Source: Methylacidiphilum kamchatkense Kam1 (lineage in GTDB: Bacteria; Verrucomicrobiota; Verrucomicrobiia; Methylacidiphilales; Methylacidiphilaceae). Taken from it: a stretch of 64,000 bases of DNA. Shown here one piece after another: positions 24,993 through 32,672 of this stretch. The translations under genes were made by a program, and so were the position numbers. The stretch lies in assembly GCF_007475525.1 (NCBI RefSeq), contig NZ_CP037899.1, positions 62,001-126,000 on the forward strand, in the 5' to 3' direction. The notes under the pieces were generated by a model. That model did not search any database and had not been told where the DNA came from. It worked only from the letters and a program-made list of their open reading frames with translations. Position 1 is the stretch's first letter; each line of letters starts with the position of its first letter.

Positions 24993-26383
24993 ATGGTCAA
25001 AAGAAAAGGTTGGCAGAATTTCTTATTTTTCTTTGGCAGCCTTTCTTTCTTTTTTGGTTTTTTCTCTGCACCATTCAAGCAGAAGAAAAAAAGGGAGAAG
25101 TTCTCTATTATACCTGCACGATGCACCCCAGCGTCAAATCAAAAACCCCAGGAAAATGCCCTATTTGTTCAATGGACCTGGTGCCCGTCTATGCTTCCAG
25201 TTTTGAAACAAAAGCTGAGCAAAAGATTCCAAAAGAAACCCCGGAAGCCTCTCCCTTTTTTATTCCTCCAGAAAGGCTTCAGGCTATTGGAGTAAGGACC
25301 GAGGAGGTACAAGTCCGAAAGTTGAAACTTGAAATTAATGCCCCCGCCATTGTTTCAATCAACGAGTCAAAAATCTACGATATTAACGTTAAGGCGGGCA
25401 ATGGGTATATTATCAAATTGAATGCCAACTATGTGGGCAAGCATTTTTCCAAGGGAGAAACACTGGCCACTATATTAAGCCAGGATTGGGTTCAGGCGCA
25501 GATGGATTATATAAAGGCTTACAGAGCATGGCGGAGGAGCCTTTTAGTAAAAAAAGATAATCCGATACTGCTCGACCAACAATTTTATCACATTCGTGCT
25601 AGGCTGCGAGTTTGGGATCTTAATGAGGATCAAATTAGGGAGCTTGAAAAGTATGCTTGGTCAATGTCTGTCAACGATGTGCGAACAGCAAAGGGTATTC
25701 GTGGAACCTTTGAACTCCGTTCTCCTATAGATGGGCATATCCATGAAAAAAATGTTTACGAAGGGATGTATTTTACAGCCGGTCAGTCCCTACTCAAGAT
25801 CGTTGATCTGCAAAATGTGTGGATTTTGGCTGAACTACCAGAAGATCAGGCTCGATATATTTCGATTGGTCTTCCTTGTCTGATAAGTTTCCCTGCTCTG
25901 CCTGAAAAAACATTCGAAGCCAAAATTGATTTTATCCAACCTCATTTTGTTGAAGAGACTCGCCGATTGCAAGTGAGGGTTGTTCTGCCTAACCCCCATC
26001 ATATTCTGCATCCAGGAATGTACGCTGATTTTAAAACGACAATAGATTTTGGAACTAGACTTGCTGTAGCTGAAGATGCGGTGATACCCACAGGAGAACG
26101 CTACGTAGTTTTTCTCGATCATGGAGGAGGCCACTTGGAGCCAAAATTTGTGGAAATTGGGGATAAAATAGAAGGCTATTATATTGTCCGAGGGGGACTA
26201 AAAGAGGGGGATCGAGTGGTCAGTAGTGCTAATTTTTTAATCGATGCAGAAGCCAGGGTTCAGGGAGCCTTAAAAATATGGAGCAGCGACCATTATCATA
26301 AAAGAGAATCAGGAGAGAAAAAAGAATACCAACCGATGCCTCCTTCCCATATGCATCATATGCATGGGATGCCAGGAATGTAA
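24993..26383 (+). CDS. cusB: CusB-type efflux membrane-fusion protein with heavy-metal-binding domain
   Basis: Periplasmic adaptor of an RND copper/silver exporter, about 463 aa. An N-terminal heavy-metal-binding domain is marked by YTCTMHPSVKSKTPGKCPIC. Barrel-sandwich and alpha-hairpin regions follow, and the tail is Met/His-rich (PPSHMHHMHGMPGM). The best signal peptide starts at ATG 24993 (MVKRKGWQNFLFFF), but it joins the mature frame only if one T is added near the T runs at 25050-25063. Without that, a TTG at 25010 gives a weaker N-terminus. cusA starts 6 bp downstream. Confidence 0.86.
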
Positions 26384-26389
26384 ATACCA

Positions 26390-29300
26390 ATGATCAGCCG
26401 GATTATTCTTTGGAGTGGAGAAAATCCATTTGTGGTTCTCCTATTTGTTTTCTTTAGCCTTTGTCTTGGGCTTTATTCGGTAGCGCACGTGCCTCTGGAT
26501 GCCATTCCTGATCTTTCTGACGTTCAAGTGATTGTTTATACTGAATGGCCTGGGAGAAGTCCTACTCTTGTTGAGGATCAAATAACCTATCCGATTTCAA
26601 CTCGTTTTATTTCCGCTCCGAAAGTCAAATTCGTAAGGGGAGAGTCGATGTTTGGTAAGTCTTTTGTCTATGTGATCTTCGAAGATGGAACAGATCTTTA
26701 CTGGGCAAGATCGCGGGTTCTTGAATATTTGAACTCGGTTCGATCCTCTCTTCCCGCCAATGTCAATCCGACATTAGGCCCCGATGCGACGGGAGTAGGC
26801 TGGATTTATGAGTATGTTCTCCTAGATACATCGGGCAAGCATACCCTCTCTGAACTTCGTTCTTTTCAGGATTGGACGTTACGGTATGCTCTCTCTACCG
26901 TTCATGGAGTTTCGGAAATCGCCAGTTTTGGTGGGTATGTTAGACAATATCAAGTAAATATCGATCCTAATAAGCTTTTGGCCTATGGGATCCGTTTTGA
27001 TGAGGTTGTTCAGGCAATACAGAAGAGCAATCAAGATGTGGGAGGGAAAAGCCTAGAGGTTTCTACAGTCGAATTTTATATACGAGGCAAGGGGTATTTC
27101 AGGAATTTAGAAGATATCAGTCAGGTGGTCGTAAAAAGAGACAGGCAGGGTATTCCTGTTGTGGTAAGTCAGTTGGGAGACTTGACGATTGGAGGAGATA
27201 TTCGTTTTGGTGTCACTGATTATAACGGCATTGGAGAAGCTGTCGGGGGTATAGTCATCATGCGATATGGTGAGAATGCTCTCCAGGTGATTAATGGAAT
27301 AAAGAAAAAAATCAAGAGTCTAGAACCTTCTTTCCCTCAAGGAGTCAAATTGGTGCCCGTGTATGATCGATCCGAACTAATTTACAAATCTATTGAAACA
27401 TTGAAAAAAAAGCTTTTTGAAGAATGCCTTATCGTTAGTGCCGTCTGCGTTGTTTTTTTATGGCATCTGCGTAGCTCATTGATTCCTATTTTTATGTTGC
27501 CAGCCGCTGTTATCTTATCATTTATCCCTTTTTCTAATTTCCATTTGACAGCCAATATTATGTCTTTGGGTGGCATAGCCATTGCCATAGGAGCCATGAT
27601 TGATGCAGCCATCATCATGGTGGAGAATGCGCATCGTTCTCTTGAAGAATATAGGATATTGACCGGCAACGATCCCCAGGGGATAATCCGAAAGGAGTTG
27701 CTACTGAAAGCGTCTCAAAATGTAGGCAGACCCCTTTTTTTCTCTCTTCTTGTAATTACTGTTTCCTTTTTGCCAATCTTTGCTTTGGAGGCTCAAGAAG
27801 GCAGATTATTTAAGCCACTTGCTTTTACAAAAACCTTTTCCATGTTTTTTGCCTCTCTCCTCTCTATCACTCTTGTTCCAGCTCTTATGAACAGCTTTAT
27901 CCGAGGCAAAATCATTCCTGAACAAAAAAATCCTATCAACCGGTTCCTTTTTTTTCTCTATAAGCCCGTTCTTGAACAAGCTCTTAAACATAGAGCTATT
28001 GTTTTGATTCTGGCTCTACTGATTCTTCTCTCTACTTATTATCCATTATCCAGATTGGGCGCAGAGTTCATGCCTCCTTTAAACGAAGGAACAATCCTTT
28101 ATATGCCGACAGCTGTTCCTGGAATAAGTATTTCTGAAGCGGAGAGATTTCTCAATCTTCAGGATCGTTATCTAATGACATTTCCAGAAGTGGAATCGGT
28201 TTTTGGTAAATCAGGACAGGCAGATACAGCCACCGATCCGGCTCCTCTTTCAATGACTGAAACGATCGTCAACTTAAAACCTAAAGATAAATGGAGAAAA
28301 GGAATGAATTGGGATAAGTTGATTGCTGAAATGAATCAGAAACTCCATTTCCCTGGGGTGGCGAATGTGTTCTGGATGCCCATTCAAACACGAATTCAAA
28401 TGCTGACCACAGGGTTTCGCTCCGTTTTGGGGATTAAAATTTTTGGCAAGGATCTTGAGGAGTTGAATAGGCTTGGGGAACAAATCGAAAAAGTCTTACT
28501 AGAGATGCCTGAAACAAGGAGTGCTTATGCAGAAAGAATTGAGGGTGGAAATTACATCGATATCATTGTGCGCCGAGATAAACTTGCCCGTTACGGACTG
28601 ACTGTCGAAGATGTCAACCAAACGATTGAGGGAGCCATTGGAGGGAATACGGTGACGACCACCATCGAAGGTAGAGAGCGCTACCCTGTAAATGTCAGAT
28701 ACCATAGAGATTTTAGAAAAGACGTGGCTTCTCTTTCAAGGATTCTTGTCCCACTGCCGCCTCAAGCCTCATTACAGAGGCAAATGGCTGGTAATCCAAC
28801 AATGGTTATTGCTTCCTCACAAATTCCATTAGGTGAAGTAACAGACATTCGTTATAGTCAAGGCCCCCACTTGTTAGAAGTGAAAATGCGCAACTGGTGA
28901 ATTTTGTTTTTGTTGATACGCCTGCGAAGGATTTAGTGGGATATATTAAAAAGGCGGGACAAAAAATTGGGACAACAATCTCATTTCCACCTGGTTATTA
29001 CATTGAATGGGCCGGTTCTTATGAATATTTTCTTCGAGCGAAAGCTAAATTTTCACTACTTATTCCTTTGACTTTGTTTATCATTTTTGTCCTGATCTAT
29101 TTTAATACCCATTCTTTAAAGAAAACTCTTATAGTGCTTCTTGCTTTTCCTTTTTCTCTAGTGGGGGCGTTTTGGTTCATTTATCTCCTTAATTATAATT
29201 TGAGTGTGGCAGTTGCTGTTGGTTTGATTGCTCTAGCGGGAATCGATGCAGAAACCGGTGTTATTATGCTACTTTATCTTGATCATGCTTTCATGGAAGC

Positions 29301-29598
29301 AAAGAAAACGGGGAAAATGGGATCGATGGCCGATCTTTTAGATGCCGTTAAGGAAGGAGCAGCAGGAAGAATAAGACCCAAAATAATGACTGTTTGTGCA
29401 ATTCTTTTTGGCCTTCTGCCTATTTTATGGAGTCAAGAAACAGGAGCGGATGTAATGAAACGGATCGCCGCCCCTATGGTTGGAGGAGTTATTACCTCCG
29501 CCTTATTGGAGTTGATTATTTATCCAGTTATCTATATATACCTTGAAAAGCATTCCATTAGCCAATCCAAAAAGGTTACTGAAAAGGCTCGCATCTAA
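26390..29598 (+). CDS. cusA: CusA-type heavy-metal RND efflux pump, interrupted by a -1 frameshift
   Basis: Inner-membrane proton-driven pump of about 1,069 aa for monovalent copper/silver. The N-terminal frame holds HVPLDAIPDLSDVQVIVYTE, the first membrane block with MIDAAIIMVENAH, and the central periplasmic domain. It stops at 28900. Adding a C to the five-C run 28864-28868 gives GPPLVRSENAQLVNFVFVD, exactly the family sequence, and the frame continues through the second membrane block (GIDAETGVIMLLYLDHA) to 29598. No CusC-like outer-membrane factor and no CusRS regulator are adjacent. Confidence 0.9.
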
Positions 29599-30289: not shown

Positions 30290-30488
30290 TAAACCATGTT
30301 TTTTTTCTATTATCAAAAAGAAATACGTAATGGGCATATTTGACTGTCTATTGATTCTGTATTAAATAATATAGGCTTTTGGGCAAGGATTTGGTGGAAG
30401 ACGATATAAAAGACTTGATTTATTTTAGAAAACTATATTTTTCTTGAGAACATTTCTTCTATTTTTTTTTAGAAATATATAATTGCTT

Positions 30489-31190
30489 ATGATTCAATTT
30501 TTTTTAAAAGGCGGACCAATCATGTGGCCAATTCTGGCCCTATCCGTTATAACTCTCGCTGTCATATTCGAGAGATTGCTTTTTCTGATTGAAATAAGTC
30601 GCAATAGAAAACGCAAGCTAGTGACGAAATTCCTAGAACTTGTTGGGCATGGAAGATATGAAGAGGCATTAGCTATAGCTGAAAAAAACAAAGATTACGT
30701 TCTCAAAGTCTTACAAGAAGGGTTGAAGCATAAAGATGGAGCCTTAGAAGATGCTCTGCTTGAAGCTGCCAGCGAGCAGTTGGAAAGGTTTAATAAGGGG
30801 CTCGTTGTCCTTGATACAGCAGTAACTCTAGGACCGTTATTGGGGCTTTTAGGAACGGTTACTGGGATGATGCATGCATTTAGTATTGTGGGCTCTGGAG
30901 AGATTGCCGGAAAACAAGCTGCTATTACGGGAGGTGTTGCCGAGTCTTTGATTGCTGTTAGCTTTGGTCTTGCCGTAGCCATTGTAGCTATCATTCCTTT
31001 AAATTTTTTCAATGCTCGAATGGATAGAGCAAGAAGAAGAATAGAAGAAGCTTCTACGCGTCTTGTCTTGCTTTTAAGAGGGCAAGAGGAGGCAGAGGGG
31101 ACAGCTAGCAGACCTACCATTGGGAATCCTTCTTCTTTGGAAGGAATTTCCAATTCCAAAATTCAATCCAGTTCTTCGGTGTTGCCATAA
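30489..31190 (+). CDS. exbB: ExbB/TolQ family proton-channel protein
   Basis: A 233-aa inner-membrane MotA/TolQ/ExbB-family protein that powers TonB- or Tol-type outer-membrane processes. It has an N-terminal helix (GGPIMWPILALSVITLAVIF) and the conserved pair of later helices with DTAVTLGPLLGLLGTVTGMM and GVAESLIAVSFGLAVAI. A TTG at 30483 is the other possible start. exbD follows after 36 bp. ExbB rather than TolQ is a positional guess; no tonB or tolA is near. Confidence 0.85.
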   Translation: MIQFFLKGGPIMWPILALSVITLAVIFERLLFLIEISRNRKRKLVTKFLELVGHGRYEEALAIAEKNKDYVLKVLQEGLKHKDGALEDALLEAASEQLERFNKGLVVLDTAVTLGPLLGLLGTVTGMMHAFSIVGSGEIAGKQAAITGGVAESLIAVSFGLAVAIVAIIPLNFFNARMDRARRRIEEASTRLVLLLRGQEEAEGTASRPTIGNPSSLEGISNSKIQSSSSVLP

Positions 31191-31197
31191 AGGCAAC
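31181..31197 (+). promoter_or_regulatory. Hairpin across the exbB stop codon
   Basis: GTTGCC (31181-31186) pairs perfectly with GGCAAC (31192-31197) around a 5-nt loop that contains the TAA stop of exbB. A T6 run follows about 12 nt later. It could lower exbD expression relative to exbB or only stabilise the message. Confidence 0.3.
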
Positions 31198-31226
31198 AAG
31201 TTGCTATCTTTTTTGCACATTGAACT

Positions 31227-31646
31227 ATGCAAATAGTATCTCCTAGAAGAAAAAGACCTAGACTAGAAATCATTCCTTTTATTGATGTAATGTTTTTTTT
31301 GCTAGCTACGTTTATGATGGTTTCCTTAGCAATGATTAAAAACGAAGGTCAAACCGTTAATTTGCCGTTTGCAAAGAGCTCATCTTCTATCGAAAGGAAA
31401 GAAAAAGAAACTACCATTACCATTACTGATAAAGGAGACATTTATTTTAATAAAGAGCAAGTTACCATAGAATCTTTACCAGCAAAAATTATGGAATTAA
31501 AAAATCAAGAGGCAGATCCAAGAGTTTTTCTCAACGGGGATTGCAAGGCAACGTTTGAAAAAGTAACGGCTGTATTAGATTTGATCAGAAAACAGGGAAT
31601 AACTAAGATAGCCATTCAAACGACTAAAGAAGCCAAGGGGAAATAG
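31227..31646 (+). CDS. exbD: ExbD/TolR family protein
   Basis: A 139-aa partner of ExbB. The N-terminal helix includes LEIIPFIDVMFFLLATFMMV, whose single membrane-embedded Asp carries the proton. The periplasmic domain ends VLDLIRKQGITKIAIQT, the usual ExbD/TolR fold. ATG start 36 bp after exbB; the two form a unit that energises outer-membrane transport. Confidence 0.88.
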   Translation: MQIVSPRRKRPRLEIIPFIDVMFFLLATFMMVSLAMIKNEGQTVNLPFAKSSSSIERKEKETTITITDKGDIYFNKEQVTIESLPAKIMELKNQEADPRVFLNGDCKATFEKVTAVLDLIRKQGITKIAIQTTKEAKGK

Positions 31647-32021
31647 GAAGAAGATTTTTTGGAAGATTTGTGTATAATCCTTTGCAATCCGAAGCAGAGA
31701 GGAACCTCTGGAGAGTACCCAGAGTCAATCCAGATTAGTAGCGGCGGATAAATGGTGATATAAAGAAACCACTAGCTGTCTAATGGTAGATAGAAGTTGT
31801 AGAAGAATCTGTCCTTTAGTTTCAGAATCATCTTCGAAAAGAAAAGGAAGCAAGATTGCATTCTTTATCCAGCCATTGCAAGTAAAAATAACAAAAGCTT
31901 ATTAAGGATCGGATATAATTTTTTCCGATCCTCCTTAGATGTTGTAATTGCAATAAATATGTCGCTTGTTCCTCTCGAGAGGCTTCTTTATTGCGGGATT
32001 GAAGGCAAGAATGGAAGAAGG
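31647..32021. other. Intergenic region with structured elements
   Basis: About 375 bp between convergent exbD and the Cys-rich gene, without a supported ORF. It contains a CTCTGG/CCAGAG hairpin (31706-31711 with 31719-31724), a GTAGCGGCGGATAAATGG stretch resembling part of the 23S rRNA 5' domain, and a strong terminal hairpin (listed separately). An unannotated RNA is possible but unproven. Confidence 0.4.
31906..31931. terminator. Probable bidirectional terminator between exbD and Cys-rich gene
   Basis: GGATCGGA (31906-31913) pairs perfectly with TCCGATCC (31924-31931) around a 10-nt AT-only loop. It lies between two convergent genes, where a bidirectional terminator is expected. On the minus strand a T-rich stretch follows the stem. 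Confidence 0.5.
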
Positions 32022-32207
32022 CTATGAGCAATCACAATCTTTTCCCTTGTGTACCGCACAATCTTCTTTCTTTGCACACTTATCTGCACAGCCACATTTG
32101 ACTTTCTTTTTTGCAATTTCGATGGCTTGTGAAGCATACAAAGAAGAAACAGAAATTAAAGAGAGGGAAACAAAAAGAATAGAACTTAATTTAAATAGGT
32201 TTTTCAT
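32022..32207 (-). CDS. Small secreted cysteine-rich protein
   Basis: The ATG at 32207 gives a 61-aa precursor: a clean signal peptide (MKNLFKLSSILFVSLSLISV, then an SLYA|S-type cleavage site) followed by a mature part of about 37 residues. The tail holds six cysteines and a histidine in KVKCGCADKCAKKEDC and HKGKDCDC (spacing CxC-x3-C-x5-C-x7-CxC). Such spacing suits metal binding or disulfide packing, like a metallothionein-type peptide. No family is recognised. It ends at the 31906 terminator. It is 2.4 kb from the copper pump genes but on its own transcript. Confidence 0.6.
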   Translation of the reverse strand: MKNLFKLSSILFVSLSLISVSSLYASQAIEIAKKKVKCGCADKCAKKEDCAVHKGKDCDCS

Positions 32208-32306
32208 TCTGCAAATTGATAGGAAAAGCGCAAAAAAAGTCAAGGTTTTTAGGAATAAAAAGCAAAGATCCAAGATCTTATAGTTTTATTTCGATAAAAT
32301 AGATAC

Positions 32307-32672
32307 ATGAATAGATTTGTAATCCAGGAGCATTATGCGCGCCGCCATCATTATGATTTGAGACTTGAAAAAGATGGAGTGCTTAAAAGCTGGGCAGTTC
32401 CTAAAAGTTTACCATTGTCTGGTGAAAAAAGGCTAGCGATTCAGGTAGAAGACCATCCACTGGATTATATTGGATTTGAAGGAAAGATTCCTCAAGGCGA
32501 ATATGGAGCCGGAACAGTAATTATATGGGATCAGGGAGAATATGAGCCAGTAGAATGGGGAGAGGATAAAATTCTTTTTGTTCTTCACGGAAAAAGATTA
32601 AAAGGAAAATATGCTCTGATCCATTTAAAAAAAACAACCCCTGGCCATTGGCTACTTATGAAACTAGATTGA
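32307..32672 (+). CDS. Stand-alone LigD-type 3'-phosphoesterase domain protein
   Basis: A 121-aa protein equal to the 3'-phosphoesterase (PE) module of bacterial DNA ligase D. It has the metal/active-site motif HYARRHHYDLRLEKDG, then WAVPKSLP, the second histidine in VEDHPLDYIGFEG and IPQGEYGAGTVIIWD. In NHEJ ligases this domain trims 3'-phosphates and ribonucleotides from ends. Here it is alone, with no ligase or polymerase domain attached and no ku gene in the window. Either NHEJ parts lie elsewhere or it works as an independent end-cleaning nuclease. Confidence 0.88.
   Translation: MNRFVIQEHYARRHHYDLRLEKDGVLKSWAVPKSLPLSGEKRLAIQVEDHPLDYIGFEGKIPQGEYGAGTVIIWDQGEYEPVEWGEDKILFVLHGKRLKGKYALIHLKKTTPGHWLLMKLD

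Follow-up and report, generated by a model that had tools for sequence, protein, structure and literature searches.

Bacterial metallothioneins are very small, Cys- and Lys-rich proteins with CxC motifs, few or no aromatic residues and a His that may serve as a ligand, and those of the PF02069 family are cytosolic and not known to carry an export signal. The former features recur in a short peptide encoded in a 64,000-nt stretch of the Methylacidiphilum kamchatkense Kam1 genome (the whole stretch analysed, hereafter the window). The peptide differs from SmtA/BmtA (PF02069) and from mycobacterial MymT, however, in that it carries an export signal and holds six Cys in 36 residues. SmtA and MymT are described in PMC7558416. 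The search for PF02069 gave no match to the peptide and none in the 13 family genomes (0/13), while the control search found the family in Synechococcus elongatus.

Csp1 and Csp3 (PF03860), as presented in PMC7558416, resemble the peptide as read here in being Cys-based Cu(I) stores of methane oxidisers, with Csp1 being exported. Csp1 is, however, a Tat-exported four-helix protein that binds 13 Cu(I) (PMC7558416), whereas the peptide consists of 36 residues and its precursor starts with MKNLFKLSS, without a twin arginine. PF03860 was likewise found in 0/13 family genomes, with the family being detected in Bacillus subtilis by the control search. Thus, a Cys-based buffer of the PF02069 or PF03860 kind was not found in any of the 13 genomes.

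Bufferins/oxazolins share with the peptide a Sec-type signal peptide followed by a short Cys-containing mature part. According to PMC12452194, they are Sec-exported, copper-chelating Cys peptides, for which a role in buffering copper outside the cytoplasm is proposed. In that paper, 90% of Buf2 members contain six Cys, and a considerable fraction of the precursor genes lies apart from MNIO genes. In contrast to bufferins, the peptide has neither an MNIO nor a DUF2063 gene beside its own gene, nor the EGKCG motif. No bufferin family of Pfam or NCBIfam was matched, and Buf1 (DUF2282) is absent among the Pfam matches of 11 peptide members. The MNIO gene of the window genome lies about 1.2 Mb from the peptide gene, and no MNIO match was obtained in the stretches around the other A-type loci of the peptide. 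A bufferin-like cluster of Kam1 was observed at L077 (G000:C1 around 1332861-1333643), where an MNIO, its DUF2063 partner and a precursor candidate are encoded. The three MNIO loci inspected (L077, L082 and L083) harbour precursor candidates of 73–77 aa with a signal-like N-terminus, those of L077 and L083 containing SCKGKQSCKGKK. A literature search found no paper that treats MNIO or DUF692 in this genus. By the tests run, the peptide belongs neither to PF02069 or Csp nor to an MNIO-linked bufferin cluster.

A signal peptide followed by six Cys is also the layout of defensin-like peptides (AtDEF-like, PF25052). The peptide matches this family below its curated cut-off (19.8 vs 25 bits; 3/11 members, best E-value 0.00071, others up to 1), and its paralogue has His in place of one Cys.

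Gene, precursor and putative control regions

The coordinates given for the gene in the earlier note are correct, and its strand, unstated there, is the minus strand (Table 1). The signal peptide, the Lys/Cys-rich mature part and the spacing CxC-x3-C-x5-C-x7-CxC plus His, all described in that note, were found in the translation. The precursor reads MKNLFKLSSILFVSLSLISVSSLYA-SQAIEIAKKKVKCGCADKCAKKEDCAVHKGKDCDCS, with the hyphen marking the predicted signal-peptidase cut. By sequence, the signal peptide is of Sec type, with a hydrophobic N-terminus and an L-x-A motif, in which L23 and A25 are invariant in 10/10 aligned homologues and A25 in 11/11. The mature part of 36 residues has a computed mass of 3.84 kDa and pI of 8.6; nine of its residues are Lys, six Cys and one His, while Phe, Trp and Tyr are absent.

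Table 1. Positions, strands and supporting evidence of features in the window.
Feature	Position	Strand	Evidence
Heavy-metal efflux genes: membrane-fusion protein with HMBD domain, RND pump in two ORFs	25010..29598	plus	Pfam; synteny
ExbB (30483-31190) and ExbD (31227-31646)	30483..31646	plus	Pfam; synteny
Downstream hairpin, 9-10 pairs	about 31904..31933	.	folding z -3.1 on minus strand, -3.6 on plus strand
CDS of 61-aa precursor, stop codon included	32022..32207	minus	translation; homologues in 11/13 family genomes; purifying selection
Mature part, 36 aa, six Cys and one His	32025..32132	minus	six Cys kept in 11/11 A-type sequences; composition
Signal peptide, residues 1-25 (predicted)	32133..32207	minus	cut inferred after L23-x-A25, from invariant residues in homologue alignment
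Putative promoter: TTGACT (32243-32238), 16 nt, TATCAA (32221-32216), 8 nt to ATG	32216..32243	minus	conserved in 5 Methylacidiphilum loci
Conserved TTTTTATTCC-containing element, 5' of the -35 box	32244..32261	minus	conserved in genus loci

No Pfam or NCBIfam family scored above its cut-off for the 61-aa peptide. The Cys pattern occurs in one of the 265 window ORFs of 40–120 aa and in none of 20,865 ORFs from 60 Markov-simulated sequences of 64 kb, so chance does not explain the peptide. It is a genuine small protein, lineage-restricted, under selection and bearing an export signal. The gene is presumably expressed, and its product presumably exported in vivo.

In the five Methylacidiphilum loci, the putative promoter consists of TTGACT, a spacer of 16–17 nt and a weak -10-like box located 6–8 nt before the ATG, and no Shine-Dalgarno-like sequence precedes the start codon; thus, the peptide mRNA may be leaderless. 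A generic promoter scan flagged nothing at this position. The TTTTTATTCC element has a single exact copy in the genome, and it was rejected as a regulon marker because its near-matches are no commoner than those of a control pattern (14 vs 13).

The peptide gene behaves as a single-gene unit. A strong terminator had been claimed for it; a hairpin does exist, but it lies about 90 nt past the stop codon, the sequence immediately 3' of the stop is not unusually structured (z 0.4), and the hairpin is not among the terminators reported by a scan. It may terminate exbBD as well as the peptide gene, with which they are convergent. In relatives L021 and L024, a downstream stem has a clearer T-run. The roughly 250 nt that separate exbD from the hairpin (31647-31900) align well among the three closest genomes and in no others. 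When the exbD–peptide intergenic stretch was considered as a small-RNA candidate, Rfam gave no match at gathering level and chance-level matches below it.

Distribution, constraint and genomic surroundings

The family sample comprised 13 genomes, five of the window's genus, seven of a second genus (presumably Methylacidimicrobium) and one of a third. The window's type of peptide, designated A-type, was detected in 11 of them (5/5, 5/7 and 1/1, respectively). According to the earlier note, loss of the cysteines in relatives would refute its reading; examination of the 11 A-type homologues revealed that all six Cys are kept in every one, as are CAxHK and the terminal CDC, and that the G012 homologue has one residue fewer between the second and third Cys. 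Within genera, dN/dS (NG86) ranges from 0.07 to 0.29 in 15 out of 20 pairs, these being the pairs with finite dS, and differences are greatest at third codon positions in all seven homologue pairs compared. The A-type peptide is under strong purifying selection.

In G005, a contig crosses the peptide's place but lacks the segment (~3.2 kb) that in G007 holds the peptide gene and an AAA-ATPase gene. At this site (L072; G005:C193, about 287-411) the absence of the segment is lineage-specific, with both flanks found on one contig. No A-type peptide was found in G004, a genome that is 83% complete and in which the contig stops short of the peptide's place.

In the rest of the order (49 of 62 genomes), the A-profile search gave no strong match, the best E-value being 0.048, while among 387 genomes of the phylum strong matches were obtained only in the six family members drawn, followed by a match with an E-value of 2.6e-4 in G310. 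The latter locus (L052, 1447-1698, plus strand) encodes a short Cys-rich peptide with a signal-like N-terminus, which was rejected as a relative: it has another Cys pattern and was found by protein search in 1/197 genomes of its order. At the six other weak phylum matches and at L043, L045 and L047 from the order, inspection revealed no peptide that combines export with the six-Cys arrangement, and no ORF of the six-Cys exported type is present at L018 (E-value, 0.136). Further weak matches were obtained in the order, and a second search gave five outside the family, three of them with an internal stop. The scan of named genomes yielded two loci, one in Methylacidiphilum sp. Yel (L019) and one in a Flavobacteriales MAG (L020), where the match is restricted to the signal peptide. 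A mobile-element origin of the peptide was rejected: searches of plasmid and phage records gave no match, and a relative is encoded at none of the 91 sites in viral contigs that fit the pattern. The PDB search returned four chance-level matches to the peptide (best E-value, 0.069) and no strong one.

The peptide gene is convergent with the ExbB-ExbD pair in all five Methylacidiphilum loci, and a gene with a DNA-ligase-D phosphoesterase domain lies on its other side in four of them. In the window, the latter gene (32307-32672) is divergent from the peptide gene and encodes a stand-alone DNA ligase D 3'-phosphoesterase domain protein (LigD_N by Pfam, 121 aa). In the second genus, the A-type gene has an AhpC/TSA-redoxin protein, a nitrite/sulfite reductase and an AAA protein as neighbours. 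Synteny analysis disclosed no metal regulator and no fixed metal-gene neighbour at A-type loci.

The peptide had been described as lying a few kb from a copper pump, which holds for the window (2.4 kb), but heavy-metal efflux genes are near the peptide at only three of 11 loci (the window genome, G009 and G011) and were not found in stretches of 9–20 kb around the other eight. The argument for metal handling from proximity to the pump therefore fails. The RND pump of the window (26390-29598) is divided between ORFs of 836 and 233 aa that overlap and differ in frame; in G009 and G011 it is a single ORF of 1069–1070 aa. The split stems from a frameshift mutation or from an assembly error, and an error of the latter kind is suspected in another gene, hyhL, by the Kam1 paper (PMC6688271).

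Readings of the conserved cysteines

The source genome also carries a B-type paralogue of the peptide (G000:C1:2001768-2001950), which is present in all five genomes of the genus. Comparison of the A and B profiles gave a probability of 95.9% and an E-value of 5.1e-9, to which the signal peptide contributes in part. When 17 sequences were aligned (11 A-type, five B-type and one diverged copy from G001), the first five Cys matched throughout, whereas at the sixth position 12 sequences have Cys and the five of B-type have His. The replacement of Cys by His can preserve a metal ligand but does away with a disulfide, and an odd set of five Cys leaves one unpaired, which is the main argument for metal: the exchange is easier to reconcile with a metal site than with three disulfides. 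On the other side, B-type dN/dS between close strains is 0.11–1.17 (5 of 10 pairs computable), so that the B-type looks less constrained than the A-type, which counts against this argument.

With a probability of about 0.5, the peptide may be a lineage-specific exported thiolate buffer for a soft metal, most likely Cu(I), which protects the envelope and perhaps holds copper for methane monooxygenase. In this scheme, the small preprotein would leave the cytoplasm through Sec and be cleaved behind L-x-A, giving the Lys-rich 36-residue peptide, whose six Cys and one His would bind the metal in the acidic periplasm. Thiolates of Cu(I) are more acid-tolerant than those of Zn or Cd. The peptide would then buffer free periplasmic metal and might keep copper for the copper-dependent enzyme. 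Metal binding, the identity of the metal and the physiological role are putative assignments. As for the secreted metallothionein-like peptide proposed in the earlier note, the sequence supports it better than any other reading, through the export signal, the conserved Cys and the Cys-to-His exchange of the paralogue. No catalogued metallothionein family was matched. Judging from sequence features, it is most likely that the peptide works like a metallothionein outside the cytoplasm.

A narrower version, according to which an unmodified extracytoplasmic metallothionein serves as a Cu(I)-thiolate store that supplies or protects particulate methane monooxygenase, in the place that Csp1 takes in other methanotrophs, is tentative, with the odds against it. 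PmoA-family genes are present in all 13 family genomes, G005 included; as this genome is without the peptide segment, the peptide is dispensable there, which counts against a strict link to methane oxidation.

An exported thiolate sink for Hg(II), As(III) or Ag(I) instead of copper would have an anatomy identical to that of a copper buffer. The literature reports mer and ars genes in Kam1, SolV and V4 and growth of Kam1 at 1 mM arsenite or arsenate (PMC6688271), as well as merA in six out of six verrucomicrobial methanotrophs (PMC8262016). Nevertheless, Pfam analysis of some of the neighbours identified none of them as mer or ars, and the copper-dependent methane oxidation of the family makes copper the likelier metal. 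Such a sink is unlikely.

Six Cys in an exported peptide, together with the subthreshold AtDEF-like match, might also indicate a secreted disulfide peptide with three Cys–Cys bridges, either a defensin-like antimicrobial or a signal. However, the match spans residues 8–53, mostly the signal peptide, and the paralogue has five Cys and His at the sixth position in all of its sequences. The strong purifying selection is also not the diversification expected of antimicrobials. This explanation is decidedly unlikely. AlphaFold2, supplied with two sequences only, predicted no fold (mean pLDDT, 52.4) and was uninformative.

A thiol redox buffer, or a substrate of a periplasmic oxidoreductase, that binds no metal would accord with the redoxin and reductase genes adjoining the peptide gene in the second genus, and with the gene for a Thioredox_DsbH protein adjoining the B-type gene. 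Such neighbours, however, vary by genus and sit on other strands or units, and the Cys-to-His exchange is unsuited to a dithiol. A purely redox function seems very unlikely.

The least probable explanation is a bufferin-like RiPP, i.e., an orphan precursor whose Cys are modified in trans by an MNIO encoded elsewhere in the genome: although MNIO (PF05114) occurs in 11/13 family genomes, nine of which are among the 11 bearing the peptide, each of the three MNIO loci inspected contains a precursor candidate of its own, and obligate MNIO modification is unlikely, as G010 and G012 have the peptide with no MNIO match and G005 has MNIO without the peptide segment. In some species, the peptide might nonetheless be modified in trans.

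Copper handling in verrucomicrobial methanotrophs

Our search of the literature on Methylacidiphilum metals, Cys-rich proteins and transcriptomes, with most subscription papers and supplementary tables outside its scope, found no paper on the peptide, and a search for 'periplasmic metallothionein' found no paper either. Passages retrieved with selected terms from PMC8764830, PMC3404531 and PMC4210602 contained no expression value for the peptide.

The PmoB of verrucomicrobial methanotrophs is without the usual copper sites, according to PMC6688271. With such a PmoB and no Csp match in the 13 family genomes, copper storage and buffering in these bacteria are puzzling, and the exported thiolate buffer proposed here is a directly testable candidate. 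Should the peptide bind Cu(I) under acidic conditions, it would represent a metallothionein-type system beyond the cytoplasm, as well as an acid-stable metal-binding peptide.
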